From positions 4,340,001-4,404,000 of the forward strand of contig NZ_CP097263.1 of assembly GCF_028622115.1 (NCBI RefSeq): DNA of 64,000 nucleotides. The letters run 5' to 3'. The notes below the pieces were generated by a model. That model worked only from the letters and a program-made list of their open reading frames with translations, had not been told where the DNA came from and did no database searches. Made by a program: the position numbers and the translations under genes. This document shows, one piece after another, positions 4,518-34,555 of this stretch. Origin of the DNA: Kutzneria chonburiensis. GTDB lineage: Bacteria > Actinomycetota > Actinomycetes > Mycobacteriales > Pseudonocardiaceae. Within the stretch, counting starts at the first letter, position 1. Every line of letters starts with the position of its first letter.

Positions 4518-7500
4518 TCATCCCAGCACTCCGGGCACATCGGAGCCGCGGCTGTCCCACTGGTCGGACCGCCGGTCGAGCAGGTCGGCCGAGGTCCGCT
4601 CGGGCTCTTCCTCGGGCTCCTCGCCCTCGGCGACGGCCGAGTCCGGCTCCGGCTCCGGTTCCGGCTCGGCGTTCGGGTCGGGCACGTGGAACGAGCTGCG
4701 CGCGCCGCTGACCTCGGGCTCCGGCTCGGCCGAGCCGGGGATGATCTTCCCAGGCCGCCAGGTTGCCAGCTTCGCCTGGTCGTCGGCCGGTGCGGGCACG
4801 CCGCGCAGGTCGCCCTGCACCCACTTGTCGTTGTCCTCCACCGGGGCGTCGGTGGCCAGGTCCTCCTGGCCGTCCTGTCCCTTGCGCCCGAACAGCCACG
4901 GCAGCACGGCGGCCGACGACGCGCCGCCGACCTCCCACGCCGTGAAGTCCTCGGCCCCGTCGTTCCCGTGCACCATGGCCACACGGTCGGGCGGCGTCGC
5001 CGGTTCAGCCGACGGCACGCCGATGTGCTCGGTGTTACCCGGGTGATGGCCGCCGTGGCCCTCGGCGAAGGCGCTCTCGCCGACCCCGCTGCCCGTCGCG
5101 AGCAGCTCCGACGCGTCCGACCGGTGACCGGCCGGCGTCGACGACGGCTGCCCCGGGGCCACGCCCGGCGTCATCATCGTCGGCATGCCGGGCGTCGGCT
5201 CGGCCGCGGTCTCCGTGACGTCGGCCGGCGTGGTGCCGTCGAGGCCGTAGAGCGTGCCGGAGCCGCCGGCCGCGCCGGTGCCGCCGGAGAGCAGCACCGA
5301 CGGATCGCCGGCATAGTCGGCCATGCCGCCGCCGGGAAACGCGGTCGGATCGAGCAAGCCACTGGCATCGGACTTGGGCGGGGCCTGGTTCTGGTTGCCC
5401 ATACCGCCGCCCATGCCACCCATACCCGGGCTCATCGGCATACCCGCGCCCGGTGCGCCAGGCGTACCGGCGGGGCCGCCGCCAGCCGGCAGCTGCTGGT
5501 TGTCGCCCGCGCCATCCTGGCCGAGATCGTGGACGCCGCCCGCGCCGGCCAGCGACGGGTCGTTGACGTCGGTGCTGCCGGGGAAACCACCGACCGGCGG
5601 CAGATCGGCACCGCCATCGGAGCCGGCCAGGTTGTCCAGACCGTCCAGCGAGCCGGAGCCGCCGGCCGCACCGGTGCCGCCCGAGAGCAGCACCGACGGA
5701 TCGCCGGCATAGTCGGCCATGCCGCCGCCGGGGAACGCGGTCGGGTTGAGCAGGCCGCTGGCGTCCGACTTGGGCGGCGCCTGGTTCTGGTTGCCCATAC
5801 CGCCGCCCATGCCACCCATACCCGGGCTCATCGGCATGCCCGAACCGGGCACGCCGGCGGGGCCGCCGCCGGCCTGCGCCAGCTGCTGCTCGTTGCCGCC
5901 GAGGCCGTCGCCGAAACCGTCCTGGCCAAGGCCATGGTCGCCGGTCAGCGACGGGTCGTTGACGTCGGTGCTGCCGGGGAAACCGCTCACCGGCGGCAGA
6001 TCAGCGCTGCCGCCGCCGCCACCGCCGCCCGCGCTGGTCAGGTTGTCCAGACCCTCCAAGCCCTTCAGACCGTCCAAACCGGACAGTCCGCCACCGCCGC
6101 CGGACGCGCCGTCGCCGCCGTGCAGCAACGTGGACGGGTCGAACACGTCGCCGTCCAGCGAGCCCGGGAACTTGGTCGGGTTGAGCAGGCCGCTGGCGTC
6201 GGACTTGGGCGGCGGGTTGTTCTGCCCCATGCCGCCCATGCCACCGCCCATGCCACCCATCGGCGGCATGCCGCCGGCGCCGAGCTGGTTGTTGTTCGCA
6301 CCGCCAAGACCGCCGCCGGTGCCGTCACCGAGGCCGGGGAACTGGTTGGGGGCGTTCTGCTCCAGGTTGTTGGCCAGGTTCTTGAGGTCGTCGAGGCCGC
6401 CGCCACCGGCGCCGCCCAGCTTGTCGTCGCCGAGGCCGCCCGCGCCACCACCACCGCTGCCACCGAGGCCGGTGTCGCCGGGGAAGCCGCTGACCGGCGG
6501 CGGGCTGAACTTGGTGTTGCCGAGGCCGCTGCCGTCCTGGCCGCTGGTGTCGTTGAACAGGTCGTTGTTCTTGCCCAGCCCGTCAAGGCCGCTGTTGCCG
6601 AGACCACTGTTGCCAAGGCCCGTGTTGCCAAGGCCGCCGCCACTGCCGCCGAGGCCACCGGGGAACTGGCTCACCGGAGGCGGCACGAAGTTGCTGCCCC
6701 CACCGCCACTTCCGCCGCCGGCGCCACCGCCGAGGCCGTCGCCACCGAGACCGTCGCCACCGCCCGGGAACTGGCTCGGGGGCGGGATCGCGGCCAGGTT
6801 GTTGCCGCCGAGGCCACCTCCGCCGCCACCACCGCCGCCGAGGCCGTCGCCGCCAAGACCATCGCCACCGCCGGGGAACGGGCTGATGGGCGGCGGCTTG
6901 AAGTCGCTGCCGCCACCGGTGCCGCCACCGCCACTGCCCCCACCGTCACCGCCACCGTTGAACGCGTTGACGGGTGGCGGCTTGAAGTCGCTCCCGCCGC
7001 CTCCGCCGCCACCGCCGCCGTCGCCGAAGGGGTTGTTGTTGCCGTCGCCGAACGGGTTGTTGTTGCCACCGCCGTCGCCGCCACCGGGCGGCGGCGGGAT
7101 GTTGAAGTTGCTGCCGTCGTTCGGGCCCGGCAGGTCGTCGGGGCTCGGCGCCGTGAAACCGTCGTTGGTGACCGCGTAGTGGCCGGACAGGTTGGTGATG
7201 ACCTTGCGCATGTCATTGGTCATCATGTCCACGATGACCTGGTCCTCGTGGACCATGACGTAGCCGTTCTTGTCCTTGCTGGCCCCGCGGGCCAGGGCCT
7301 GGTCGGCGTACCACTGGTCGATGGCGTGGATGGTCTGGATCGCGGTGTCCAGCCGGACGCCGTTCTGGAAGACCTGGTTGGGGATGTTGTCCGCGGCGAT
7401 GTCGCCGCCAAGCACCTGCGCGTTGGCCTTGATGTTCTGGCTGAGCTGGTACATCTTCGTGTTGAAGGCGGAGGCCGCCTCGCCCTTCCACGGCGCGTCG

Positions 7501-7742
7501 TCGCCGTAGGACAGGGCGTCGGCCTGGTCGCGGATGCTCTGGCCGACCATCTCCAGCGCGCCCTTGACGTAGTTGAGCGCGTTGGCCGCGTCCTTGAGCG
7601 ACTGCGGGTTGGACAGGCCCGAGTTCGACGCGCTGCCGTAGTAGCCGACGATGGCCGTCATGATCTTGTGCCAGTCCCAGGTGCTGAAGTCGTCGGGCGT
7701 GCCCTCGCCAGGGTTGTTGTTCGTCTCGCTCGGGTCAGCCAT
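4518..7742 (-). CDS. Giant WXG100 protein with Gly/Pro/Asn-rich repeats and acidic tail
   Basis: 1074 aa. AGGAG precedes the ATG. Residues 1 to about 200 are a helical WXG100-type domain with the turn PWKGEAASAF (W85-x-G87). From about residue 210 to 840 the sequence is low complexity: runs of Gly, Asn and Pro, with recurring PPxxxFPGG segments and three copies of a PPKSDASGLL(N/D)PT(A/K)FPG module. The last 220 residues are more complex and very acidic, with several EPEPEPE-like runs, ending SDVPGVLG. No catalytic motif is seen. Its place between the small Esx-like genes and the YbaB-like gene suggests a T7SS-exported, possibly surface-located filament or wall-spanning protein; this is inferred. 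The opposite strand is also largely open here because of codon bias and should be ignored. Confidence 0.8.
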   Translation of the reverse strand: MADPSETNNNPGEGTPDDFSTWDWHKIMTAIVGYYGSASNSGLSNPQSLKDAANALNYVKGALEMVGQSIRDQADALSYGDDAPWKGEAASAFNTKMYQLSQNIKANAQVLGGDIAADNIPNQVFQNGVRLDTAIQTIHAIDQWYADQALARGASKDKNGYVMVHEDQVIVDMMTNDMRKVITNLSGHYAVTNDGFTAPSPDDLPGPNDGSNFNIPPPPGGGDGGGNNNPFGDGNNNPFGDGGGGGGGGGSDFKPPPVNAFNGGGDGGGSGGGGTGGGSDFKPPPISPFPGGGDGLGGDGLGGGGGGGGGLGGNNLAAIPPPSQFPGGGDGLGGDGLGGGAGGGSGGGGSNFVPPPVSQFPGGLGGSGGGLGNTGLGNSGLGNSGLDGLGKNNDLFNDTSGQDGSGLGNTKFSPPPVSGFPGDTGLGGSGGGGAGGLGDDKLGGAGGGGLDDLKNLANNLEQNAPNQFPGLGDGTGGGLGGANNNQLGAGGMPPMGGMGGGMGGMGQNNPPPKSDASGLLNPTKFPGSLDGDVFDPSTLLHGGDGASGGGGGLSGLDGLKGLEGLDNLTSAGGGGGGGSADLPPVSGFPGSTDVNDPSLTGDHGLGQDGFGDGLGGNEQQLAQAGGGPAGVPGSGMPMSPGMGGMGGGMGNQNQAPPKSDASGLLNPTAFPGGGMADYAGDPSVLLSGGTGAAGGSGSLDGLDNLAGSDGGADLPPVGGFPGSTDVNDPSLAGAGGVHDLGQDGAGDNQQLPAGGGPAGTPGAPGAGMPMSPGMGGMGGGMGNQNQAPPKSDASGLLDPTAFPGGGMADYAGDPSVLLSGGTGAAGGSGTLYGLDGTTPADVTETAAEPTPGMPTMMTPGVAPGQPSSTPAGHRSDASELLATGSGVGESAFAEGHGGHHPGNTEHIGVPSAEPATPPDRVAMVHGNDGAEDFTAWEVGGASSAAVLPWLFGRKGQDGQEDLATDAPVEDNDKWVQGDLRGVPAPADDQAKLATWRPGKIIPGSAEPEPEVSGARSSFHVPDPNAEPEPEPEPDSAVAEGEEPEEEPERTSADLLDRRSDQWDSRGSDVPGVLG
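5279..5846 (-). repeat. ~170-bp direct repeat, copies ~400 bp apart, within the giant WXG100 gene
   Basis: The segment 5279-5448 is nearly identical to 5678-5846 (offset about 399). Both encode the PPKSDASGLL/MADYAGDPSVLLSGG module. A more diverged third copy lies around 6120-6260. High identity at the DNA level indicates recent duplication or gene conversion. Confidence 0.8.
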
Positions 7743-8424: not shown

Positions 8425-8715
8425 TCACACGCCCCACTTGGAGGAGCCGACCCGCTCCGCCTCGAGGATGTGGTTGCGGATGTCTTCCAGGTCGCGCTGG
8501 GCCAGCGCGAGGTCGCTGGTCATGGTCTCGTGGGCCTGCTCGTACTGGGCCTCGACCGTGACGAACGCGTTCTTGGTGTCACCCTCGAACTCGTTGGTGT
8601 GCTGCTTGACCTGCTGCGACAGCGTCTCGCCGACCTGGTTGAGGTGGTTGGCCACGGCCTGGATGGACTGCGAGATGTCCTCGACGACGTGGAGTTCCAT
8701 GGAGTAGTCGGACAT
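8425..8715 (-). CDS. ESAT-6-like (WXG100-family) small protein with FEG in place of WxG
   Basis: 96 aa; AGAGGAG precedes the ATG. Two amphipathic helices flank the turn EFEGDTKNAF, where F43 replaces the usual Trp of WxG, in a protein of typical Esx length. It is adjacent to a canonical WXG100 gene, as in EsxA/EsxB pairs, so a heterodimer is likely. A second ATG at codon 6 is possible. No YxxxD/E is seen, so export may depend on its partner. Confidence 0.8.
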   Translation of the reverse strand: MSDYSMELHVVEDISQSIQAVANHLNQVGETLSQQVKQHTNEFEGDTKNAFVTVEAQYEQAHETMTSDLALAQRDLEDIRNHILEAERVGSSKWGV

Positions 8716-8765: not shown

Positions 8766-9089
8766 TCAGATGCCCAGGCCGCTGGTGTGGCTGCGGGCCT
8801 TGCCGGCGACCGAGATGATGTTGTCGTTGGTCGCGCCGTACAGCTTGGCCGTGTCCAGCATCGTCTGCTGCATCTCCTTCAGCTTCGCCACCACCTGCTT
8901 GGCGCCGTCCTGGAAGGAGTTCATGGCCTCGTGGTAGGTCGAGGCGGCCTGCCCGGTCCACACGCTGGCCAGCGTGTCGCAGTGCTGCTGAAGGTTCTGC
9001 AGCTCCTTGTCCGCGCCCTGGATGGCGTCGTCCTGGCTGGTCGCGGTGTTGTACAGCTCCTGCACAGTCACCTTGGAAACGGAAGCCAT
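8766..9089 (-). CDS. WXG100-family T7SS protein (EsxB/CFP-10-like)
   Basis: 107 aa; GAGGAG upstream. A helix-turn-helix hairpin has the canonical turn VWTGQAAS (W44-T45-G46). Near the C-terminus YGATND is one residue away from a strict YxxxD/E signal. It is 71 bases downstream of the EccA-like gene and 50 upstream of the FEG-type Esx partner. Expected to be a small helical substrate or co-substrate of the ESX machine. Confidence 0.9.
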   Translation of the reverse strand: MASVSKVTVQELYNTATSQDDAIQGADKELQNLQQHCDTLASVWTGQAASTYHEAMNSFQDGAKQVVAKLKEMQQTMLDTAKLYGATNDNIISVAGKARSHTSGLGI

Positions 9090-9160: not shown

Positions 9161-12100
9161 TCAGGCCGGCACGGGAACCGCCTTTCGCTCCTCGGTCGAC
9201 GGCATGGCGCCGTCGAGGTCGGCCGTGGTGACCGTCCTTGAGGTGGCGTTCGCGGCGACTGCCGCCGCGAACCGGTGCGCCTCGCGCACGCCGCCGGCCG
9301 TTGCCCCGGCCGACAGCGCCGCCATGACGCCTTCCCCCGCCTGCCAACCGTTCTCGGTCCACCAGCGGAGGACGAGTTCGGCCTTCTCGGCCGGCGAGTA
9401 GTCGGTGAAGCGCAGGTGCTCGGCGAAACGGCCGGCCAGCTCCGACCGGCCGCCGAGCAGTGCGCTGATCAGCTGCTGCTGCCCGGACAGCAGCAGCACG
9501 GTGTCGGACGCGGCCCCGAGCACCTCGTGCACGGCCGCGACCACACGGTTCTTCTCCTCGTCGGACCGACGCAGGAACGCCGGATCGATGTCGACGAGCA
9601 GCGCGCCGCCGGCCGCCGCGTCCAGCGCCGCCCGCACCCGGATCGCGGCCTGGCCGTCGTACCGGCCGGGCACCGCGGACAGCGGAAGTTCCGTGACCAC
9701 ACCGGAAGCCAGCAGCCCCAGCTCGGACAGCGAGCGCGTGAACAGCCGGGCCACCGTGCGGCGGCCGGTGCCCAGCGGGCCGTCCAGCACCAGGTTGGCC
9801 AGTCCGCCCAACGGCTGCCGACGCCGGCTCAGCGCCAGCAGACCGGTCAGCCGGGCCAGCAGAGCCTCCTTGACCGCGGCCTGACCGACCAAAGTGGACA
9901 GTCGGCGGGCGCTGGCCCCGGGCGGCAGGTTGTCCTCGGGCGTGTCGGTGCCGTCGTCGCCCTCGGCCAGCGGCACATCGCTGATCGCGAAACGGGACAG
10001 CTCGTTGTCCGCGCCGCCGGTCATGGCCAGCCGGGAGGCCTGGGTGGAGATCATCGACTCGAACAGCTGGCGCGCGACACGGCCGTTGCCGAAGGTCTTG
10101 CCCTTCGGCGTCTTGTCGAAGAACCGGTGCAGCGCGTTGAGCACGTCGTCGTCGAGCTCGTAGTAGTGCTTGGCCGCCATCCCCCGCACGATGGTGACCA
10201 GCTCGTCCACCGTGTAGTTGGGGAATTCCACGGTCTTGGTGAAGCGGGAGGCCATACCGGGGTTGGAGGCGAGGAACTGCTCCATCTGGTCGGTGTAGCC
10301 GGCCACGATGACCACGATGTCGGACCGGTGGTCCTCCATCAGCTTCATCACCGTGTCCACGGCCTCCTGGCCGAAGTCCGGGCCGGAGCCGCCGGACTGC
10401 GAGGTCAGGGTGTAGGCCTCGTCGATGAACAGCACGCCGCCCAGTGCCTTCTCGAACACCTCGGTGGTCTTGATCGCGGTGGCGCCGATGTACTGCGCGA
10501 CGAGGTCGGCCCGGGCCACCTCGATCATGTGGCCTTCACGGAGGATGCCCAGCTCGGCCAGGACCGAGCCGTACAGGCGGGCGACCGTGGTCTTACCGGT
10601 GCCGGGCGGGCCGGCGAAGACCAGGTGCCGGCTCACCGACGGCATCGGCAGACCCAGCTGCTCACGTCGCTGGGCCATCCGGTTCAGGTTGATCAGACCG
10701 GTGACCTCGGCCTTCACCGAGTCAAGGCCGACAAGGCTGTGCAGGTCGGCCAGCGGGCCGTCGCCGCGGTGCTGGGCCTCCTCGGCCTGCGGCAGCGGCG
10801 GCTGCTCCGGCTTCGCGGCCGGGGCGGCCGGCTGCACGACCGAGGCCGGCGCGGGAGCCACGGGAGCGGGGGCCGGCGGGGCTGCGGCCTCGTTGTCGAA
10901 GATCTCGCAGCTGTCCAGTTCGGACACTCCGCTGCCCCGGACATCGATACCGGGCCCCGAATTGTGGTGCACACGGCAGCGGGTGGCCCGCAGCGTGCCG
11001 CCGTCGGCGACGACGATGCCGGCCCCGTTGACCTCCGAGACCTCGCTGGCCTCCAGCGTCAGCAGGCAGCCGGAGCCGATCTCGATCGGGCAGCCCTTGG
11101 CCGCCGCCGACGTCACGGAAGCGTTGGCATTGCCCGTGAGCAGCAGGCCCGCGCCGGATCCCGTACGCACGCTGAGCTCGTCGACACGGCCGGTGGAGGA
11201 GCCCTCCAGCGCGACACCGACGCCGCTGTCCAGCTCGACCAGCGCCCGGCGCAGGTCGATCCGGGAGTCCACGACCCGGACGCCGCCGGTCACCGAAAGC
11301 CCGTCGATACGGGGCTTTCCACCGCCGCTGACCAGAACCGAGGACTGCTCGGCCTTGGTCACGGTCAGCATTCGCACGCTCGGGTCGGCGTTGGCGTCGA
11401 CCAGCAGGCCGATCGGGCTCTCCGTGATGGTGCAGCCCTCGATCACCGGCGACGCGCCGCCGGTCACGTGCACGCCCTGGCGGGCGGCGGCGGTGAACGT
11501 GCAGTCCCGCAGCACCGGCTTGGCGCCGTTGGCGATGTGCACGGACTGGCCGCCGGAGCCGGTGAACTCGCACTCGGTCAGCGTCACCGCGCCGGCGCTG
11601 GTCAGGTACGCGTCCAGGCTGGCGCTGCCGGTGATGGACACCCGGGTCAGGTCGGCCCGGCCGTCCTGCTCGATCACCACGGCCGGCTTGCCGGCGCCGA
11701 CGATCCTGGTGTCCTCGACCTGGCCGACGCCGTTCCCGTTGACGCACAGGCCGTTTCCCTTGACCCGGTCGAACACGCAGCCGCGGACCTGCACCCGGCC
11801 CTGCTCGGCAACGACCATCGCCGACGAGCCGACCTCGACGATCACGGTCTCCTCGACCGAGCTGTTGCCGACGGAGGTGACCACGATGCCGGCACCGGTC
11901 GGGTTCTGCACCCGGCACTGCCGCATCGCCAGCACACCGGTCTGCCGGGCCAGCACCGCCGTCCACGCCGCGCCGCCGACCCGGCAGTTGTCCAAGGCCG
12001 CCTCGCCGTGCCGGACGTCCAGCACCGGCAGCTCGGCGTCGTCGCCCGTGATGTCCAGACCGGACAGCTGCACCGCGCCACCCGCGACCACGACGGTGCT

Positions 12101-12289
12101 GCCGGTGGCCGAGTGCAGCCGGACCGTGCCGGGGCCGTCCTCGGCGTTGATCGTGACGACGCCGGTGATGGCCAGCGACTCCTCGTAGCGGCCGGCGGCG
12201 ACATTGATCACCGAGCCGTTGGTCGCTCTGGTCAGTGCCTCCGCGATGGTCCGGAACGCGCCCGGGACCTGAAGGACCTGGCGGGTCAT
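9161..12289 (-). CDS. eccA: EccA-type AAA+ ATPase fused to an N-terminal right-handed beta-helix
   Basis: 1042 aa. The start at 12289 gives a 4-base ATGA overlap with the upstream stop; a 29-residue upstream extension is out of character. Residues 1 to about 465 are repeated short strands with regularly spaced Gly, Asn and Cys and phrases such as DNCRVGG, RGCVFDRV and DSCEIFDN, typical of parallel beta-helices. A Pro/Ala-rich linker follows to about 510. The first AAA+ module is CbxX/EccA-like, with Walker A GPPGTGKT at 560-567 and Walker B VLFIDEA at 619-625. A second module is degenerate, with GPLGTGRR and LLVDIDP. EccA proteins remodel ESX substrates in the cytosol; mycobacterial EccA has a TPR-like N-domain, so a beta-helix here is a different substrate-recognition platform (inference). 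Confidence 0.88.
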   Translation of the reverse strand: MTRQVLQVPGAFRTIAEALTRATNGSVINVAAGRYEESLAITGVVTINAEDGPGTVRLHSATGSTVVVAGGAVQLSGLDITGDDAELPVLDVRHGEAALDNCRVGGAAWTAVLARQTGVLAMRQCRVQNPTGAGIVVTSVGNSSVEETVIVEVGSSAMVVAEQGRVQVRGCVFDRVKGNGLCVNGNGVGQVEDTRIVGAGKPAVVIEQDGRADLTRVSITGSASLDAYLTSAGAVTLTECEFTGSGGQSVHIANGAKPVLRDCTFTAAARQGVHVTGGASPVIEGCTITESPIGLLVDANADPSVRMLTVTKAEQSSVLVSGGGKPRIDGLSVTGGVRVVDSRIDLRRALVELDSGVGVALEGSSTGRVDELSVRTGSGAGLLLTGNANASVTSAAAKGCPIEIGSGCLLTLEASEVSEVNGAGIVVADGGTLRATRCRVHHNSGPGIDVRGSGVSELDSCEIFDNEAAAPPAPAPVAPAPASVVQPAAPAAKPEQPPLPQAEEAQHRGDGPLADLHSLVGLDSVKAEVTGLINLNRMAQRREQLGLPMPSVSRHLVFAGPPGTGKTTVARLYGSVLAELGILREGHMIEVARADLVAQYIGATAIKTTEVFEKALGGVLFIDEAYTLTSQSGGSGPDFGQEAVDTVMKLMEDHRSDIVVIVAGYTDQMEQFLASNPGMASRFTKTVEFPNYTVDELVTIVRGMAAKHYYELDDDVLNALHRFFDKTPKGKTFGNGRVARQLFESMISTQASRLAMTGGADNELSRFAISDVPLAEGDDGTDTPEDNLPPGASARRLSTLVGQAAVKEALLARLTGLLALSRRRQPLGGLANLVLDGPLGTGRRTVARLFTRSLSELGLLASGVVTELPLSAVPGRYDGQAAIRVRAALDAAAGGALLVDIDPAFLRRSDEEKNRVVAAVHEVLGAASDTVLLLSGQQQLISALLGGRSELAGRFAEHLRFTDYSPAEKAELVLRWWTENGWQAGEGVMAALSAGATAGGVREAHRFAAAVAANATSRTVTTADLDGAMPSTEERKAVPVPA

Positions 12290-15222
12290 GCGCTCGTCCT
12301 CTCCAGCGTGGTGGACAGCAGCCCGGGCGGGGCGCTCGCGGTCGGCCGCGCCGTGTCCTTGGCCGGCTGGGCCCACGCCTCGGCCGCCTGGTCGAGGCCG
12401 TTGAGGGCCAGGTCGTCGAACATGCTGCGGCCGGTGTTGACCTGGCCGTCCTCGCCGATCTCGGCGGTGGACAGCTCACGCAGCAGCACCACCGGGGTGG
12501 GCTCGGTCCGCACGTCCAGCACCTTGAAGTTGGTGCCGGGCAGGAACAACACCTGGTCGGCCACGGACGGGTCGATCAGCTGGGTGCGGCGGGCGGTCAT
12601 CGACCACACCCGGAACTCCACCTCGCCGGCCGCGGCCGGCCGGCCGTTGATGGTGGCGGTCAGGAAGGCCCATTCGCTGACCAGCAAACGGTTCCGGTAC
12701 CAGTCCAGTTCGGACGGTCCGGCGGCGGCCCACAGCTGGGTCGCGCCACGGTAGGACGGCAGCCGCTTCAGGCCGGAGCTGACCACCCGGGCCAGCGGCA
12801 CGTGCGGTCCGGGGGCGGCCGCGCGGATCGCCTCGTCAACGCCGGCGGCATCGCCGGTCAGGTACAGCCGCACGCCGACCAGGTCGGCCAGCACCTCGTC
12901 GGCGTCCACACCGACGCGCAGGCCCGGCACCTGGGACAGCATCCGGCCGACCGTGCTGGCGGCCACGTCGTACTGGGAGCTCAGGGTCTTGCGCAGCCAG
13001 GCCCGTTCCTCGGTCAGGGCCCGGCCCGGCGGCACCGCGCAGGCGTTGGCCGCCGGCACCGGCTGCACGGCCACCCGCTTGGCCGTGGCGGCCACTGGTT
13101 TCGGCGCCTCGGTGGCCACGGGAGTCTCGGCCACGACGACCGGTTCCGGCTGCGGGACCGGCTCGGGCTCCAGGATCTCCTGCGGCGACGGGGTTTGCGG
13201 TGCGGCGGGGGCCGGGGCGGCTGCCACCGGGGCCGGCACCGCGATGGCCGCGAAGTCGATGCCGAAGTCCGGCACCGAGGACTCCAGCCGCAGCCCGGAC
13301 GGCATCGCCGCCGGCGGCGCGTCCACGGCAGCGGTCATGATCGGCTTGGGGGCGGCGTCGGTCGGCGACTCGATCACCGGCCCGGCGACCGCGACCGCCG
13401 GCTCGACGACGTCGGGCTCGACCACCGGGGCCTCGACCACCGGAGCCTCGGCGACCAGAACCTGCACACCCGGCGCTGCAACGGTTTCGGGCACAACCAC
13501 CGGAGCCTCGACGGTCTCGATCACCGGAGCCTCGGTCACCAGGACCTCGGTCACCGGCGCCTCGACCACCGGCTCGTCTTCGACGATGTCCTCGGTGTGC
13601 CCGATGACCGCCGACTCCAGCACGATCTCCGTGCCGGTCTCCACCGCGATCGGCTTGGCCGGAACCCGCTTCGCCGCAACGGTTTCCGCCGGCTCGACCT
13701 GGGCGGTGAACGGGACGTGCACGGTCGGCGCGTCCAGCTCCTCGCCCTCGACGACGTCGGCGTCCCCGATCAGCTCGACCGACACGATCTGCGTGGCCTC
13801 GACCGGGGCGTCCACCGGCGCCGAGGGCAAAGCCGGCAGCGACAGCTGCGGGGCCATCTGCTCAACGCCGGTGTCGGCCGGCAGCTGCACCGTCGAGCCG
13901 GCGGTCCAACGGCCGGGCACGCTCTCCACGATCATGCCGCGCGCGGCCGGCAGCGTCGGCACGTGCGACGAGAAGGCCGAGGCCGGCAGCACGCGGAACA
14001 TACGGCGCATGGCCGGGTCCAGCGTGCCCATCAGGTCGCCGGCCAGCTTCTGCATACGCTCGGACAGGTGCCGCGTGGTCGTGTCGAACACCACGGCGGC
14101 GTGGCGGGGGTCGATCGGGGCGGTACGCACGAAGTCGGCGTTGACCGGGGCCACCGGCGGCCGCAGCCACAGTCCACTCTGGACGATCTCGACCACGGCA
14201 TCGTTGGCGTACCAGTAAACCCCGGGAGAAAGCTCAGTCGCGCCGTCGATCGGGCTGTCGTGGGACAGCAGCTGCGGCGGCAGGATCCGGCCGGCGGCCG
14301 CGGCACGCGGCTGGTACCGCAGCTCACGGGCGAACGAGCGCCAGCCCAGCTGCCCGTCCGGGGACACCACGTGCAGCGTGCCGGCGGTGGACGGCATGCC
14401 CGCATGGAAGGTCACCGGCGCGCCCAGCTGGTCCGCAAGCGCTTGCCCCACCGAGGAACGCAGCGTCTCGACCGGTCCGTACTGGATGAACCGCAGTCGG
14501 TCGCGGCTCTCCGGCGGCACCGAGTGGCAGAACCGGGCGATCTCGCTCATCGGCACCGGGCGGGACTTGGGCGAGCCCAGCACCACGGTCATCAGGTCCA
14601 GCCGCGGCACCAGGCCGGAGATCAGCAGCGCCCGCTGGTCGTCGGCCGACTCCAGCGGCCGGATCCACACGCCGGACGGCAGCGGCTCGACCACGCTGAC
14701 CGGACCCGGCTGCCAGATCTGCTCGGTGCCCGGGTACGTCCACTCCGGAATGGGAAAGCGGCGCGAGTCGTGCTGCGGCGCGCGGCCGCGCTTGAACAGC
14801 ACCCAGCCGACGCCCTTGAGCGCGGAGCTGAACAGCGCGCCGCCGGGCGCCATCACGACATCACCGTCCGGCACCAGCACCGGCACGTTGAGCCGCTCGG
14901 CCAGCCACTGGCCGGTCATCACGGCGGCGTCCCGGGAGTGCTTGCCCAGCACGAGGCGGTACCCGCCGCGACGACGGCCCAGCAGCGCCGCGACGGCGTG
15001 CCACAGCTCGATCGGCCCGTCCGGCGGCACGTCCACCACGACCACGGTGTGGTCGGGGTCCTTGGCGATCATGCGGGCGAACGCCAGCGCGCGCTGGTTG
15101 AGGTGTCCCTCAAGGTGCAGCAGCATCGCGTGACCCGCGTCGACAGCGACCACCTGTGGCAGTGCCGTGTTCTGGGAAGTGGTGCCCACGGCCCAGGTGC
15201 GCAGCCTCGTGCCCAGCATCAT
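12286..15222 (-). CDS. T7SS-locus protein with C-terminal ADP-ribosyltransferase-like (probably inactive) domain
   Basis: 978 aa; the start lies 1 base after eccB and the stop overlaps eccA by 4 bases. Residues 1 to about 430 are a globular region of unknown family without membrane segments (it begins LGTRLRTWAVGTTSQ). Residues about 430-710 are a Val/Glu/Pro/Ala-rich linker with repeated EAPV units. Residues about 735-905 resemble an ADP-ribosyltransferase: LPSYRG with R825, then a WAFLTATI strand where STS would be, and ADQVLFLPGTNFKVLDV where the ExE loop and final strands would be. The ExE glutamates are replaced by A-D-Q, so NAD-dependent catalysis is doubtful. It occupies the place of a structural component in the operon and may bind the machine or its substrates. 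The family identity of the N-terminal half is unknown. Confidence 0.7.
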   Translation of the reverse strand: MMLGTRLRTWAVGTTSQNTALPQVVAVDAGHAMLLHLEGHLNQRALAFARMIAKDPDHTVVVVDVPPDGPIELWHAVAALLGRRRGGYRLVLGKHSRDAAVMTGQWLAERLNVPVLVPDGDVVMAPGGALFSSALKGVGWVLFKRGRAPQHDSRRFPIPEWTYPGTEQIWQPGPVSVVEPLPSGVWIRPLESADDQRALLISGLVPRLDLMTVVLGSPKSRPVPMSEIARFCHSVPPESRDRLRFIQYGPVETLRSSVGQALADQLGAPVTFHAGMPSTAGTLHVVSPDGQLGWRSFARELRYQPRAAAAGRILPPQLLSHDSPIDGATELSPGVYWYANDAVVEIVQSGLWLRPPVAPVNADFVRTAPIDPRHAAVVFDTTTRHLSERMQKLAGDLMGTLDPAMRRMFRVLPASAFSSHVPTLPAARGMIVESVPGRWTAGSTVQLPADTGVEQMAPQLSLPALPSAPVDAPVEATQIVSVELIGDADVVEGEELDAPTVHVPFTAQVEPAETVAAKRVPAKPIAVETGTEIVLESAVIGHTEDIVEDEPVVEAPVTEVLVTEAPVIETVEAPVVVPETVAAPGVQVLVAEAPVVEAPVVEPDVVEPAVAVAGPVIESPTDAAPKPIMTAAVDAPPAAMPSGLRLESSVPDFGIDFAAIAVPAPVAAAPAPAAPQTPSPQEILEPEPVPQPEPVVVAETPVATEAPKPVAATAKRVAVQPVPAANACAVPPGRALTEERAWLRKTLSSQYDVAASTVGRMLSQVPGLRVGVDADEVLADLVGVRLYLTGDAAGVDEAIRAAAPGPHVPLARVVSSGLKRLPSYRGATQLWAAAGPSELDWYRNRLLVSEWAFLTATINGRPAAAGEVEFRVWSMTARRTQLIDPSVADQVLFLPGTNFKVLDVRTEPTPVVLLRELSTAEIGEDGQVNTGRSMFDDLALNGLDQAAEAWAQPAKDTARPTASAPPGLLSTTLERTSA

Positions 15223-15223
15223 G

Positions 15224-16564
15224 TCACTGCCCTCCTCCGCGATTCGCCGTCAACACGGCCTTGCCCATCACCAGGTCGGGACCGGACGGCATGGCGTCCA
15301 GCACCTCCTTGGGCACGCCGACCGGCGCGTTGCCGAGCCCGAGCGGTCCGAAGGCCTGCTGCGCCACCCGGAACTTCTCGCCCTGGTCGGTGATCAGGTA
15401 GTAGGTCCGGTTGTTGGCCTGCGACGGCGCCGGCTCGGCCACCGCGAGCATTCCCTTGCCCGGCGGCACGTTCATCAGGGTCCGCCCGGCGTACACCGGC
15501 AGCGGCTCGATCACCAGCTCCCCCTTGCCGACCACGTCGCCGCGCGAGTGCTGGAGCACGCACATCGCCTGGTCGGCGATGAAGTTGCGGGCGGAAACCA
15601 GGTTCGGCGTGCCCTGCAACAGCGTGTGGTCGGCCGACTCGGGCAGGGTGGCCAGTTCGGCCGTGCTGATCTGCTTGGGCTGCGCGGCGCCCGGCTGGCC
15701 GAGCAACAGGGCCAGCGCGGTCGGGTTGACCGGGGCGACGCCGTCCTTGCGCACGACGAAGGTCTGCTGCTCGCCACCCGCGTCGGCCCGCACGAGGTCG
15801 CCGACCTTGAGCCCGGCCTGGAAGTTCGTCCCGGCGTCGGGGATCTTCGGCACGTCCAGGGTCGGGCCCTGGTCGAGCTGGTGGATCCACACGGTCGGCA
15901 CCTTGGTCGGCGGCACGTCGCCGAAGCCCAGCGCGACCAGCGCGGTGTGCGAGGCGATCGGGAAGATGCGGCTGCGCCAGACCGCGTAGTTGACCTGGTC
16001 CGGTCCCTGCACCAGGTAGCGGGCGTTGTCGTCGAGCCCGGTGGTCCTGGTGTTCGGGTCGATGTCGATCACCAGGGACGGCGCGGTCGCGCCGGGGGCC
16101 GCGCACAGCGACCACTCGGGCCCGACCATGTCCTTGGCCTGCGGCACGGAATCCGGCGCGCCGGGGATGCCGACCGCCGCGCCGTGCGGCACGCCGACCA
16201 GCGAGTTGCGGGAGACCGGGGTGAACTGCCCGGTCTGGTTGCTGCCGGCGTAGAACAGCATGGCCGAGGCGGTGTTCAGCGTCGGGTACAGCGCGCCCTC
16301 GAGGTAGAGGTACCGGTTGCCGGTCTCCTTCTCCACCACGATCGCGCCGGCCTTCTTGTAGTCGGTGTTGCCGCCCGGCACGATCAGGCCGTACACCGCG
16401 AAGCCCAGGCACAGCAGCACGGCGACCAGCACGCCCCACATCAGGCCGAGCGATGACCGGCGCAGCGGCGGCTCGCCGCGGCCGGGGTCGCCGGTGGTCA
16501 GGGCGCTGGCCAGGCGGGAGGTGACGAACTGGTAGGCCTGGACGTGATCGCGTCGACTCTGCAT
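15224..16564 (-). CDS. eccB: Type VII secretion protein EccB
   Basis: 446 aa. The N-terminus (MQSRRDHVQAYQFVTSRL) is the conserved EccB start, followed by one membrane segment at about 40-62 and a large extracytoplasmic repeat domain containing the conserved cysteine pair region. Length is close to that of mycobacterial EccB (about 480-500) but somewhat shorter. EccB is the periplasm-facing part of the ESX membrane complex, with EccC and EccD. It is 3 bases after eccD and 1 base before the ART-like gene, which implies translational coupling. Confidence 0.95.
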   Translation of the reverse strand: MQSRRDHVQAYQFVTSRLASALTTGDPGRGEPPLRRSSLGLMWGVLVAVLLCLGFAVYGLIVPGGNTDYKKAGAIVVEKETGNRYLYLEGALYPTLNTASAMLFYAGSNQTGQFTPVSRNSLVGVPHGAAVGIPGAPDSVPQAKDMVGPEWSLCAAPGATAPSLVIDIDPNTRTTGLDDNARYLVQGPDQVNYAVWRSRIFPIASHTALVALGFGDVPPTKVPTVWIHQLDQGPTLDVPKIPDAGTNFQAGLKVGDLVRADAGGEQQTFVVRKDGVAPVNPTALALLLGQPGAAQPKQISTAELATLPESADHTLLQGTPNLVSARNFIADQAMCVLQHSRGDVVGKGELVIEPLPVYAGRTLMNVPPGKGMLAVAEPAPSQANNRTYYLITDQGEKFRVAQQAFGPLGLGNAPVGVPKEVLDAMPSGPDLVMGKAVLTANRGGGQ

Positions 16565-16567
16565 GCC

Positions 16568-18052
16568 TCAGCCCGCCAGCGCCCGGAACCAGTGGTACGC
16601 GTCCAGCACGACCAGCAGCAGCGGCACCAGCGCGATCGCGGTCCACAGCTCGGCGATGTCGCCGACCTGGCCCCAGATCGGCAGCAGCCGGGTCTGCGGC
16701 AGCCGCCACGCGCCGATCACCAGCGCCACCACGACCAGCAGCACGCCGACGAGCAGGCCGATGCGGCCGGTCGGGGACAGCGAGAAGGCGTAGTTCAGCA
16801 CCACCGAGGTGATGATCAGGGCGCCGGCCCACACCGTGGATCCGCGCTGCCACACCGACAGCAGCGACTTGGCCCGCAGCAGCGCGGCCAGCCCGAACAC
16901 CAGCGGCAGCACCCAGCCGATCCAGCCCTCGACCATCCGCACCAGCACCAGGCAGTCCACAATGGACACGATGGATGCGGCCACGATGACCGCGGTCAGG
17001 TAGCCGTCGGCGATGGCCGCCTTGGCCGCCACCTGGTTGGCCGGCGCCGGGTCGATGTCGGTCTGCAGCTCCTCGGTGGTGCGCGGCAGGTTCGGCACCC
17101 TCAGCCGGGCCAGCCGGGCCGCGATGCGCGCGCCGAACGTGGCGAACAGGAACAGGAAGACGGCGACGATGCTGACCGCGCCGGGCACGTCGGCCGAGGT
17201 GCCGGTGAGCAGCACCGAGCCGAGGATGCCGCAGAGGCCGAGCAGCCCGGCCGCGCCGTAGACGGCGATGCCGCCCCTGGTCGCGGCGGCCAGCGCCGCC
17301 GCGACCAGCACCACGCAGATGCCCGACAGCAGAACCCCGGACGGCTGTGGGGCAAGCACATCGGCCACGTCCTGCTGGCCGATCAGGCCGGCGGCCGCGG
17401 CGAACACGCAGGCGGCGACGCCGCCGACGTAGGAAAGCGGGCGGTCCTGGGTGATCTCGTGGATGGCGACCGCGCCACCGCCGAGGGCCAACGTGATCAC
17501 GCCGCAGTAGATCGCCAGCAGGCCACCGGGTCCGCCGGCGAACAGCACGGCGACGCCGAGCACGACCACGGTCAGCGTGGCCAGGCCCAGGAAGATCCGC
17601 CGGGTCGACTCGGGCCGCCAGCGGTCCGGCCGGGCGGCGATGGCCTCGCCGACGCCGTCGGCCAGGTCGTCGTAGGTCAGCTCGGGCATCGGGGCCACGG
17701 CCGCGCGGAGGTAGAGCACGTCGCCGTCGTGCAGGTCGGCCTGCTCCGGCGTGGCGTCCAGGTCAAGCGGGGGCTCGCCCAGCCGCTGCAACACCCAGTC
17801 CTTGCCCTCGTCCTGGCCCCGGTTGACGTGCCGGGCCAGCACGGGCAGCAGCAGCCCGAACGTGGCCGCGGCCGGGATGGCCAGGTCGGCCCGGCCGTCC
17901 GGGCCGTGCACGGTGATCCGGCACAGGTCCGCGCCGCCGGCGCCACCGGCCAGCGCCACCTGCTCGACCGGGGCGTCCTGGACGGCCACCATGGTCCCGC
18001 GCGGCGTGGCCGGGAACGACGCGTCCGCGCCGATCGCGTCCGTGGGCCTCAT
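16568..18052 (-). CDS. eccD: Type VII secretion integral membrane protein EccD
   Basis: 494 aa. Residues about 40-125 form the cytosolic ubiquitin-like domain (CRITVHGPDGRADLAIPAAA). Eleven hydrophobic segments follow from about residue 150, the expected EccD topology. A CAGGAG site lies upstream of the ATG at 18052; codon 21 (MVAVQDAP) is an alternative start. EccD builds the membrane vestibule of the ESX core. It is separated from eccC by 76 bases, the largest gap among the core genes. Confidence 0.95.
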   Translation of the reverse strand: MRPTDAIGADASFPATPRGTMVAVQDAPVEQVALAGGAGGADLCRITVHGPDGRADLAIPAAATFGLLLPVLARHVNRGQDEGKDWVLQRLGEPPLDLDATPEQADLHDGDVLYLRAAVAPMPELTYDDLADGVGEAIAARPDRWRPESTRRIFLGLATLTVVVLGVAVLFAGGPGGLLAIYCGVITLALGGGAVAIHEITQDRPLSYVGGVAACVFAAAAGLIGQQDVADVLAPQPSGVLLSGICVVLVAAALAAATRGGIAVYGAAGLLGLCGILGSVLLTGTSADVPGAVSIVAVFLFLFATFGARIAARLARLRVPNLPRTTEELQTDIDPAPANQVAAKAAIADGYLTAVIVAASIVSIVDCLVLVRMVEGWIGWVLPLVFGLAALLRAKSLLSVWQRGSTVWAGALIITSVVLNYAFSLSPTGRIGLLVGVLLVVVALVIGAWRLPQTRLLPIWGQVGDIAELWTAIALVPLLLVVLDAYHWFRALAG

Positions 18053-18128: not shown

Positions 18129-21100
18129 TCACGCGGCCCCGCTCTGGAACAGGCGGATGGACCGGCGGGTGACCAGCTGGGCCCGGCCCGGCGGCAGCGT
18201 GCGCGGCTTGGCCTCGCCGAGGAACTTGCCCTCTTCCTTGGGGTAGCTCAGCAGCACGCCCGGGTTGCCCAGCTCCCACATGCGGCGCAGCAGCGGGTCC
18301 ATCATCGCCCGCATCGCGCCGGAGGTGCTGCGCGAGATCACCACGTGCATGCCGATGGTGGCGCCGTGGGCCAGCAGCGGGATCAGCGGCTGCGTCGGCG
18401 AGGCCATGCTGCCGCCGCTGACCAGCAGGTCGTAGTCGTCGACCAGGATGAACAGCTTCGGACCCGAGTACCAGTCCCGCTTGGCCAGCTGCTCCGGCGT
18501 GATGTCCTTGCCGGGCATGCGTTTGGTCATCGAGACGCCGGCGTTGGCGATCAGGTCGGTCAGCGCGTCGGCGTCGACCGCGTAGCCGATCCGGTACGGC
18601 TCGGGCACGTCGTCGTGCAGCTGCCGGCGGGTGTCGCCGAGCAGGATGCGCGCCTCCTGCGGGCTGTAGCGGCCGATCACGTTGCGGATGATCAGCTTGA
18701 GCATGTTGGTCTTGCCGACCTCGGTGTCGCCGAACACCGACAGGTGCGGCGTCTGCTCGAGGTCGTGCCACACCGGCGCGAGCCGCTGCTCGTCGATGCC
18801 GATGCAGAACCGGCTGCCCTCGGGGGCCGGCAGGTCGCCCATCGGCAGGCGGGTCGGCAGCATCCGCACCTCGGGCGCGCGCTGCCCGCCCCAGAACGTC
18901 GCGATCTCCTCGCACGCCGCCTTGGTCGCCGTGGTCAGGTCGTCGGTGGCCGAGGAGCTGTCGATCCGGGGCAGGCCGGCCAGGAAGTGGAACTTGGTGT
19001 GGGTCAGGCCGCGGCCGGGCTGCTCCGGCACCCGGGCCGCCACGCGGGCCCCCAGCTCGGACTCGACCGGGTCGCCCAGCCGCAGCTCCAGCTTGGTGCC
19101 CAACGGATCCCGGGTCGCCGGGCGGATCTCCGACCAGCGGTTGGACGCGATCACCACGTGCACGCCGAAGGCCAGGCCGCGGGAGGCCAGCTCGTTGACC
19201 CGCGGCTCCAGGTCGGGGAAGTCGTTGCGCAGCGTGCTCCAGCCGTCGACGATCAGGAACACGTCGCCGTTGGGGTCCTGGATGCGGCCGGTGGTGCGGC
19301 CCTGCCGGTAGGCGACCATGGAGTCGATGCCGGCCTGCGCGAACACCTGCTCGCGGCGTTCCAGCACCTGCGAGATCTCCTCGATGGTCCGCAGCACCCG
19401 GTCGCGCTCGAGGCGGGTGGCCACCGAGCCGACGTGCGGCAGGCCGGCCGTGGAGACCAGGCCGCCGCCGGCCAGGTCGAGACAGTAGAACTGGATCTCG
19501 TCCGGCGTGTGGGTCAGCGCCAGCGACAGGATCAGCGTGCGCAGCAGGGTGGACTTGCCGGACTGCGGCGCGCCGACCAGGCCGACGTGGCCGTTGGCCC
19601 CGGACAGGTCGGCCACCAGCAGCTCGCGGATCTGCTCGTACGGGCGGTCGACGATGCCCAGCGGCACACGCAGCGAGCGGGTGGCCGGGTGGTCCAGCGC
19701 GGTCATGCCGCGGACCGGGTCCGGCACGATGCCGGGCAGCAGCTCGTCGAGGCTGGGCGAGGCGGCCAGCGGCGGCAGCCACACCTGGCGGGCCGGCGGG
19801 CCCTGGTCGACCAGCCGGTCGATCAGGACCTCCATCAGGCTGTCCTCGTCGTCGTTGGCCGACTCGAGCCGCTCCTCGCGCACCTGCTCCGGCTCGTCGT
19901 CCTCGGGACGGCGGATGCGGCCGGGCAGCAGCGCGAACGGGGCGACCTCGCCGACGGCCCGGTTCTGCGCGGCGGCGGACTCGCCGGGGCCGTCCGGGCA
20001 CGGCCCGGAGACGTAGGCCGCCTTGAACCGCACCAGGTTGGTCGTGTCGATCTTGAGGAAGCCGTGGCCGGGGGCCGAGGGCAGCTCGTACGCGCTGGGC
20101 ACGCCGATGACGCTGCGGGACTCCATGGCCGAGAAGGTGCGCAGCGCGATCCGGTAGGACAGGTGGCCCTCGACCCGGTGGATGCGGCCCTCGTCCAGAC
20201 GCTGCGAAGCCAGCAGCAGGTGCACGCCCAGCGACCGGCCCAACCGGCCGATCTGGACGAAAAGGTCCATGAACTCCGGCTTGGACGACAGCAGCTCGGA
20301 GAACTCGTCGACCACCACGAACAGCACCGGGAACGGGGCCAGCTGCGCGCCGCCGGCGCGGGCCTTCTCGTAGTCGTACAGCGAGGAGTAGCCGTGCTGG
20401 CGCAGGAACTCCTGGCGGCGGTTCATCTCGCCGCTGATCGAGTCCTGCATGCGGTCGACCAGCGGCAGCTCGTCCTGGAGGTTGGTGATCACGGCGCTGG
20501 TGTGCGGCAGCTTGTCCATGCCCATGAACGTGGCGCCGCCCTTGAAGTCGACCAGCACCATGTTCAGCACCTCGGACGAGTGCGTCGAGGCCAGGCCGAT
20601 CACCAGCGTGCGCAGGAACTCCGACTTGCCCGAGCCGGTGGCGCCGATGAGCACGCCGTGCGGGCCCATGCCGCCCTGCGCCGACTCCTTGATGTCCAGC
20701 TCGACGACCTCGCCGCTCTCGGTGACGCCGACCGGCACGGTCAGCCGCGCCTTCTGGTTGCGCCGCGGCCGCCACTGGTTCTGCACGTCGAAGTTGCGGG
20801 CGTCGCGGATGCCCAGCAGCGCCGTCAGGTCGAAGTTGCTCTCCAGCGGCTGCTCGATCAGGTCCACGGTGCCGCTGGTGCGCATCGGGGCCAGCTGCCG
20901 GGCCACGTTCTCGGCGGCGGTGACGCTGACCGTGTCGACCACGGCCTTGCCGGTGTTCTCGCCGGCCGGGAACTCCACCTCGGCGCCGGACACGGTCAGC
21001 CGCAGCACGTCCGGGCCGCCGTGCATGGCGCCGGTGACGTCCAGCAGCACCACGTTGCGCAGGCCGGTGTCCAGCAGCCGGGAGTGCTCGGGGATCTGCA

Positions 21101-22067
21101 CCCGGTGCGCCACCACGACGTGGAACGGCTCGTTCGGGCCGGGCGGCACGGTGCGGTCGAAGTCGGGGCGGTCGGTGACGGCCGCGCCGAGCAGGTCCAT
21201 CAGCGTGTCGTGGTCGTCGGAGACCAGCCGCAGCGGGCCGGCGCCGTCACGCATGGCGGCGTGCGTGACGTGCGGCAGCCACTTGCACCAGTCCCACTCG
21301 GCGCTGCCCGGCTCGTCGGTCAGGATGGCGATCTTCAGGTCGTCCGGCGAGTGCAGCACGGCCAGTTGCAGCAGCATGGCGCGGACCAGGGCCAGCACCG
21401 GGCCGGCCTCGCCGGCGAACTCGACGCTGGTGAAGCTGCGCAGGCCGACCGCGATGGGCAGGTCGCCGACGGTGCGGAAGGCGCGGATGAAGCGACGCAG
21501 CGCGATCGCCGTCAGCGGTTCGAGGTCCTCGATCGGGCGAGTGCGCGGCGGGATGAACTCCAGCGCGGCACGCTGCGCGCCAAGGCCGATGCGGACCCGG
21601 CCGAAGTCCTCGTGGCTGGCCCGGCGCTCCCACAGCCGCGGACCCGAGACCAGCGACCAAAGCGAGGAAGGCTCGGGATTGTCCCAACGGGAGGCGGCGC
21701 GCTGCTCATCGGCCGCGGCGCGGGCCTGGCCGCGCAGCTGGGCCAGGTAACGCAGGTAGTCGCGGCGCTCGGCGCGCATCTTGCGCTTGCGCTCCATGCC
21801 CTGGCGCCCGATCTGGGTGACGCTCATGGACACCATGGAGACGCCCATCATGCCGGACATCATGTAGACGGTCGGCGAGCTGCCGGCGATGGAGAACATC
21901 ATGACCATCGCGGCGCTGCCGAGACCCATCGGCAGGTAGACCATGGCCGAGCTGAAGTCGAGACCGGCGGGCTCGCCGAGCACGGGCGGCTCGGCCAGCT
22001 CCACCTCCCCGGTCGGCAGGGCCGGGCCGGCGACGCGCTGCGATCGTTTGACGATCACGATGCTCAT
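18129..22067 (-). CDS. eccC: Type VII secretion ATPase EccC (single-chain EccCa-EccCb)
   Basis: 1312 aa, full length for an unsplit EccC. Two membrane segments lie at about 40-62 and 66-85. Three FtsK/SpoIIIE-type ATPase domains follow: Walker A GATGSGKS at 475-482 with Walker B VVVDE at 584-588; GAPQSGKS at 832-839; and GDTEVGKT at 1113-1120 with FILVDDYD near 1206. Domain 1 keeps the canonical catalytic residues; the third P-loop lacks the usual small residues before GK, as in regulatory domains of EccC that bind substrate C-termini. GGAGT-like sequence precedes the ATG at 22067. It is the first gene of the operon, after a 1-kb upstream region. Confidence 0.96.
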   Translation of the reverse strand: MSIVIVKRSQRVAGPALPTGEVELAEPPVLGEPAGLDFSSAMVYLPMGLGSAAMVMMFSIAGSSPTVYMMSGMMGVSMVSMSVTQIGRQGMERKRKMRAERRDYLRYLAQLRGQARAAADEQRAASRWDNPEPSSLWSLVSGPRLWERRASHEDFGRVRIGLGAQRAALEFIPPRTRPIEDLEPLTAIALRRFIRAFRTVGDLPIAVGLRSFTSVEFAGEAGPVLALVRAMLLQLAVLHSPDDLKIAILTDEPGSAEWDWCKWLPHVTHAAMRDGAGPLRLVSDDHDTLMDLLGAAVTDRPDFDRTVPPGPNEPFHVVVAHRVQIPEHSRLLDTGLRNVVLLDVTGAMHGGPDVLRLTVSGAEVEFPAGENTGKAVVDTVSVTAAENVARQLAPMRTSGTVDLIEQPLESNFDLTALLGIRDARNFDVQNQWRPRRNQKARLTVPVGVTESGEVVELDIKESAQGGMGPHGVLIGATGSGKSEFLRTLVIGLASTHSSEVLNMVLVDFKGGATFMGMDKLPHTSAVITNLQDELPLVDRMQDSISGEMNRRQEFLRQHGYSSLYDYEKARAGGAQLAPFPVLFVVVDEFSELLSSKPEFMDLFVQIGRLGRSLGVHLLLASQRLDEGRIHRVEGHLSYRIALRTFSAMESRSVIGVPSAYELPSAPGHGFLKIDTTNLVRFKAAYVSGPCPDGPGESAAAQNRAVGEVAPFALLPGRIRRPEDDEPEQVREERLESANDDEDSLMEVLIDRLVDQGPPARQVWLPPLAASPSLDELLPGIVPDPVRGMTALDHPATRSLRVPLGIVDRPYEQIRELLVADLSGANGHVGLVGAPQSGKSTLLRTLILSLALTHTPDEIQFYCLDLAGGGLVSTAGLPHVGSVATRLERDRVLRTIEEISQVLERREQVFAQAGIDSMVAYRQGRTTGRIQDPNGDVFLIVDGWSTLRNDFPDLEPRVNELASRGLAFGVHVVIASNRWSEIRPATRDPLGTKLELRLGDPVESELGARVAARVPEQPGRGLTHTKFHFLAGLPRIDSSSATDDLTTATKAACEEIATFWGGQRAPEVRMLPTRLPMGDLPAPEGSRFCIGIDEQRLAPVWHDLEQTPHLSVFGDTEVGKTNMLKLIIRNVIGRYSPQEARILLGDTRRQLHDDVPEPYRIGYAVDADALTDLIANAGVSMTKRMPGKDITPEQLAKRDWYSGPKLFILVDDYDLLVSGGSMASPTQPLIPLLAHGATIGMHVVISRSTSGAMRAMMDPLLRRMWELGNPGVLLSYPKEEGKFLGEAKPRTLPPGRAQLVTRRSIRLFQSGAA

Positions 22068-28391: not shown

Positions 28392-28550
28392 GTGGTTCCC
28401 CCCACAGTTCAGTGCATTCGGCGATCGTCGACGCGCGACGATCACCCCCATTGTGCCGTACAGGGAGTAGACGGATCCTCTGAATTAACGTTGCCCCGTG
28501 ACCACGGTCGTTATCGACCTGAGACCGTCGAGCTGGTAGAACCGCACCTC

Positions 28551-34405: not shown

Positions 34406-34555
34406 GAAGCTAATAGCCCCAGGCAAGCGGGTCGACGTGGAGCAACTCCACCGGCCCACTTCGTCACGTCACGGTGGCCGTTCTGCCGGCATCAGGCGGT
34501 CGGGCAGGGTAAAATGCGGTGGTACGTCGGTTCGGGATCGGGCAGGCTACGCCCT

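Follow-up and report, generated by a model that had tools for sequence, protein, structure and literature searches.

Within a 64,000-nucleotide stretch of Kutzneria chonburiensis (contig NZ_CP097263.1, positions 4,340,001 to 4,404,000; the whole stretch is called the window below), an operon of the type VII secretion system (T7SS) contains a gene, P0001, whose product ends in a conserved ADP-ribosyltransferase (ART) domain that has lost its catalytic residues. The gene (12286..15222) encodes 978 aa, organized as an N-terminal α/β domain, an acidic Pro-rich linker and the dead ART domain; P0001, its parts and the operon genes given below all lie on the minus strand. P0001 is reasonably likely to be a soluble pseudoenzyme that acts as an adaptor or scaffold of an actinobacterial T7SS subtype and that derives from a toxin cassette, where the adaptor role, the partners and the cytosolic place are what we infer. 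A degenerate ART domain in a T7SS operon protein had already been proposed in a first-pass annotation of this DNA. The fold and the loss of the catalytic Glu are borne out, while the arginine then assigned to the ART motif is not.

The ART domain spans residues 735-930 (12433..13020) and is supported by a profile match, a structure model and a fold search. Structure prediction and fold search, which the first-pass annotation had suggested, returned an ART fold and, together with the profile match, place the domain by fold in the R-S-E-type ART superfamily; a match by chance is ruled out by the model and the fold search. By themselves, Pfam and NCBIfam are blind to the domain. Pfam has no match to it at E 10, scans of 65 family members at E 1 returned no ART family, and the NCBIfam XopAI model gives E 0.076 and 12 bits (cut-off 300). 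Among solved structures, XopAI is the top profile match. Remote ART-like matches were also seen in phage records (hits H16-H27, E 2e-3 to 9e-3), some of which are named minor head or morphogenesis protein, along with a PHROG match at 0.0034.

The state of the ART cleft was assessed from alignments alone. The main alignment has 111 rows: P0001, 80 named loci and 30 rows from other genomes. L001, L031, L034, L002 and L032 were dropped from it as copies or near-copies. In the column of the catalytic Glu, these rows carry R (93), Q (9), D (3), E (3), P (1) or a gap (2), and the [QE]xE motif of active R-S-E ARTs occurs in none of the 111, the three Glu-bearing rows reading GDE, PEE and LDE. In P0001, Ala-Asp-Gln (residues 888-890; 12553..12561) replaces ExE and Gln890 stands at the catalytic Glu. 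The STS pattern is absent from all 111 rows as well; its site is occupied in P0001 by FLTAT (residues 853-857; 12652..12666), which agrees with the earlier reading of WAFLTATI in place of STS. The same reading had taken Arg825, within a YRG motif, for the ART arginine. This assignment has to be withdrawn, given that the arom-R position aligns with Leu830 (12733..12735) and that Arg825 (12748..12750), conserved in 97/111 rows, aligns with Asn or mostly Gln. The register was obtained from ungapped alignments with Tre1 and XopAI, from ungapped alignments with seven ART relatives that look catalytically intact, and from profile-to-profile comparison; it agrees with the arom-R motif of XopAI, published as FTG (PMC6829252). 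Arg occupies the arom-R column in five of the 111 rows, and P0001 is among the 105 rows that have lost all three R-S-E features.

Gene decay is ruled out by the ratios of nonsynonymous to synonymous substitution rates (dN/dS) and by the lack of stops within the matched places; P0001 is under purifying selection. A simple Nei-Gojobori count over few sequences gave dN/dS values of 0.09-0.34 for the ART domain (10 same-genus pairs), 0.08-0.40 for the N-terminal domain and 0.35-0.60 for the fast-evolving linker (6 same-genus pairs each). Kutzneria sp. 744 (L039) was omitted from the latter two counts because its reading frame differs in these parts; its N-terminal part lies in a different frame from the ART part, through a sequencing error or a real break. 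Conserved residues have also appeared that are new to the family. Trp873 (12604..12606) is found in all 109 ungapped rows, and in the pair Arg878-Arg879 (12586..12591) the first residue is present in all 109 and the second in 104. The seven intact-looking ARTs carry E (4), N, R or H at position 873 and D (5), H or Y at position 879, and at position 890 all seven have Glu where the pseudo-ART family mostly has R. From these near-invariant residues and the low dN/dS, the ART domain has been kept and its cleft changed.

Near-invariant W873, R878, R879 and R890 would also suit a cleft that has kept an affinity for NAD, ADP-ribose or some other nucleotide, or that has acquired a new activity, so that P0001 would gate secretion as a ligand sensor or unusual enzyme; an Arg one residue past the arom-R column in 62/111 rows (Trp in the window) points the same way. 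Such a function is nevertheless quite unlikely in view of the near-complete loss of R-S-E features and of the report that XopAI is unsuited to NAD binding (PMC6829252).

The proposed origin of P0001 draws on the intact-looking relatives, proteins of 2135-2733 aa from the same bacterial family. Their ART is homologous to that of P0001 (profile A3 vs A6, prob 98.7%, E 1.6e-16), with the difference that their catalytic residues look intact. The seven that were aligned were chosen among single-sequence search rows with frames >2000 aa. All seven retain ExE, and a tree separates the intact-looking and pseudo-ART groups at 100/100; the earlier reading had suggested looking for orthologues with ExE, and none is seen among the 111 pseudo-ART rows. 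Five of the seven also have, ahead of the ART, a caspase-like domain in which His-Gly and Cys are invariant, the same order as in P0001, although this likeness is moderate. It rests on a profile match between that domain and the P0001 N-terminus (E 2.7e-5, prob 74%), compared with 0.2% and 0.1% for two unrelated control pairings. Further differences are a WXG100_2 N-terminus with a PI3/4-kinase-like match in two scanned proteins, and a second caspase-like copy downstream of the ART in two. In the genome of K. chonburiensis, a partial match to the intact-looking type was found at 6949626-6949985, in a 362-aa frame, and similar short frames occur in three other genomes of the genus.

Caspase ancestry is thereby moderately supported for residues 20-165 (14728..15165), a caspase/CPD-like sub-domain. 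The catalytic His and Cys of the Peptidase C80/caspase-like domain are replaced in the window by Pro66 and Gly93, and one of 60 rows (L098) retains both. For the second α/β part of the N-terminal domain (residues 175-420; 13963..14700), no relative outside the P0001 family was found, and the VIA rows scarcely test this half. Taken with the ART, the caspase-like sub-domain would suggest a toxin cassette with a processing domain ahead of an ART warhead, both of which have since lost their catalytic residues.

P0001 occupies a fixed place in its operon. On the minus strand the order is eccC (EccCa and EccCb; 18129..22067; TIGR03924, TIGR03925), eccD (16568..18052; PF19053, TIGR03920), eccB (15224..16564; PF05108, E 1.3e-75), P0001, a gene for an EccA-like protein with a right-handed β-helix and an AAA ATPase by Pfam (9161..12289), two WXG100 genes (8766..9089, PF06013 E 3.7e-12; 8425..8715, PF06013 E 2.2e-6), and genes for a 190-aa protein and a 1074-aa Gly/Pro-rich protein. 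One base separates eccB from P0001, whose stop codon shares bases with the start codon (ATG, at 12289) of the following gene; the first-pass annotation had likewise described junctions of 1 to 4 bases. The operon was surveyed in the 80 best out of 133 relatives confirmed in named genomes, that is, in near relatives, which are therefore likely orthologues. Upstream, eccC, eccD, eccB and the N-terminal domain were matched on the same strand in 69/69 loci with room, the gene order being identical in 60/60; downstream, the β-helix and AAA parts were matched in 77/77. Every locus with enough sequence at both ends (68/68) has all operon parts. These loci belong to at least the Streptomycetaceae, Micromonosporaceae, Pseudonocardiaceae, Catenulisporaceae and Streptosporangiaceae, and the closest named relatives are from Kutzneria (ART domain identity 88-90%). 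A second pseudo-ART gene lies downstream in 9/80 loci (L086, L090, L097, L101, L102, L106, L107, L112 and L114).

Twelve further relatives were inspected in pieces of 18-19.5 kb, namely the genome's own copies L126-L128 and L129-L131, L139 and L141-L145. Three have ecc genes (L130, L131 and, with a short EccB match only, L128), three have the β-helix/AAA part without ecc genes (L129, L141, L142) and six have neither. In L126 (10206-17990 of the piece, ~4.307-4.315 Mb of the genome), a 2594-aa open reading frame with a Fic-family match stands directly upstream of another pseudo-ART copy, and two NTPase proteins with LuxR-type ends follow downstream. With the own genome included in each count, matches were found in 46/100 genomes of the family (single sequence, E 1e-3; a few of them to ARTs of the intact-looking type only), in 53/298 of the order (profile, 1e-5) and in 3/396 of the phylum (1e-10). 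Matches were also seen in 15 plasmid records, of which 11 give a 'hypothetical protein' at the place, two list no feature there and two lack annotation. Among the papers listed for T7SS with ART, pseudoenzyme, β-helix, or EccE and mycosin, and for WXG100 with ART, none has a title or abstract opening concerning this protein.

The first-pass annotation had also offered an immunity-like decoy, a dead ART that would titrate or shield the targets of ART toxins exported by the same or neighbouring cells. In its favour, ARTs of the intact-looking type have a profile match in 30/100 genomes of the family (classed by hand, motifs of the rows not read), including the partial match at 6.95 Mb of the own genome. 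However, the two types do not co-occur significantly. Of the 100 family genomes, classed by hand from frame length and a list, 40 have a pseudo-ART, 30 the other type and 16 both, so that the other type is found in 16/40 pseudo-ART genomes vs 14/60 of the rest (Fisher p 0.12). The catalytic Glu occurs in none of the 90 ART-like domains of the window and 80 regions (R 79, Q 9, unreadable 2), and a decoy would leave unexplained the fixed site between eccB and the AAA gene (68/68). The idea thus gains no support and appears unlikely. The other proposal made at that stage, in which a toxin fold was recruited for binding, fits best with a conserved dead ART, constant gene order, purifying selection and, by analogy, the XopAI precedent.

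Location in a T7SS operon and a toxin-like order of domains could instead mean that P0001 is itself transported, as a non-enzymatic effector or a surface part working outside the cell. Features of T7SS substrates of the WXG100/LXG type were looked for in P0001, but neither a WxG motif nor, in the model, an N-terminal helical hairpin was found, and the operon encodes its WXG-type proteins in genes of their own. Export is accordingly judged improbable. Nor is any 19-residue stretch of the protein strongly hydrophobic, the best Kyte-Doolittle mean being 1.67. Because hairpin, motif and hydrophobic stretch are all missing, P0001 is predicted as likely soluble and cytosolic.

Two known systems suggest what a soluble pseudoenzyme of this kind may do. 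XopAI (PDB 6k94, 6k93, 6kly) is a type III effector which is reported to keep the ARTT-loop motif, to have an acidic cleft and to be able to bind an Arg peptide, a dead ART cleft having been turned into a peptide-binding site (PMC6829252). Unlike XopAI, P0001 is encoded within a secretion operon and its family has lost the ARTT-loop motif, the catalytic position being taken by R or Q. Alignment hits were also obtained to PDB 6dre and 6drh, labelled PAAR repeat protein and ART toxin/immunity pair, which we take to be the ART toxin Tre1; both its arom-R (YRG) and its ExE, seen in the alignment, are gone in P0001. For 6DRH, the name Tre1 is given in the XopAI paper (PMC6829252). The second system is YukC/EssB of T7SSb, which shares with P0001 a dead-enzyme domain in a T7SS. 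This pseudokinase is reported to bind the N-terminal part of an effector, and the FHA region of the coupling ATPase to co-purify with it (PMC9600267). Its fold is unrelated, and it is a membrane protein of Bacillota systems.

By analogy with the XopAI peptide site and the YukC contacts, P0001 would act through binding rather than catalysis. Its N-terminal domain and ART-fold cleft, tethered by a long acidic linker, would form an adaptor or scaffold that bridges the EccC/EccB/EccD membrane complex, the β-helix/AAA protein and WXG substrates, much as YukC/EssB contacts coupling ATPase and effectors. The linker (residues 441-734; 13021..13902) is of low complexity with a net charge of -35, and negative charge was found in 70/78 linkers measured; with a median net charge of -3, the ART domain overall is not basic. 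From the acidic linker and the conserved Arg gained near the ARTT loop, docking of an acidic segment may be guessed. The segment would be the linker of P0001 itself or else the tail of a partner or substrate, and it would dock in the ART cleft, in which Trp, Arg and Arg have replaced residues that are mostly acidic in the intact-looking relatives. That a whole subtype of actinobacterial T7SS uses an exapted, doubly dead toxin, caspase-like protease and ART, as a standing part whose cleft docks such a segment is a tentative proposal, held with less confidence than the adaptor role in general.

The remaining components of a T7SS were sought around P0001. None of the 23 mycosin-profile places of the genome lies inside the 64-kb window, and with the own-genome mycosins as queries neither the window nor any of the 80 loci gave a match at E 1e-5, the single weak match being a 104-aa frame in L062 (4e-4). 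EccE was located at three places in the genome, none within the window. The same loci and window gave no EccE match either, in a single-sequence test that is weak because even paralogues within a genome find one another only at ~1e-5; P0001 itself is ruled out as EccE, having no PF11203 match at E 1. The 1074-aa repeat protein (4518..7742), with repeated blocks of the KSDASGLLNPT and PPVSGFPG type, has a WXG-like N-terminus (TIGR03930 E 6.6e-4, below cut-off) and is a possible T7SS substrate. Elsewhere in the window, a VWA protein (31041-34459), whose match to EspA/EspE is weak (E 0.009, below cut-off), adjoins a MoxR-like AAA protein, and a 659-aa DUF6541 protein lies at 26472-28451 (E 7.7e-120).

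In the usual view, the secretion machine is the launcher and the toxin its load, whereas P0001 looks like a load that has become part of the launcher itself. The route would run parallel to that of the T7SSb pseudokinase, from an unrelated fold, and the family points to a T7SS subtype for which no mycosin or EccE gene was found nearby, the EccE test being weak. With its clear residues and genomes, the P0001 family offers a means of probing what a dead ART may bind.
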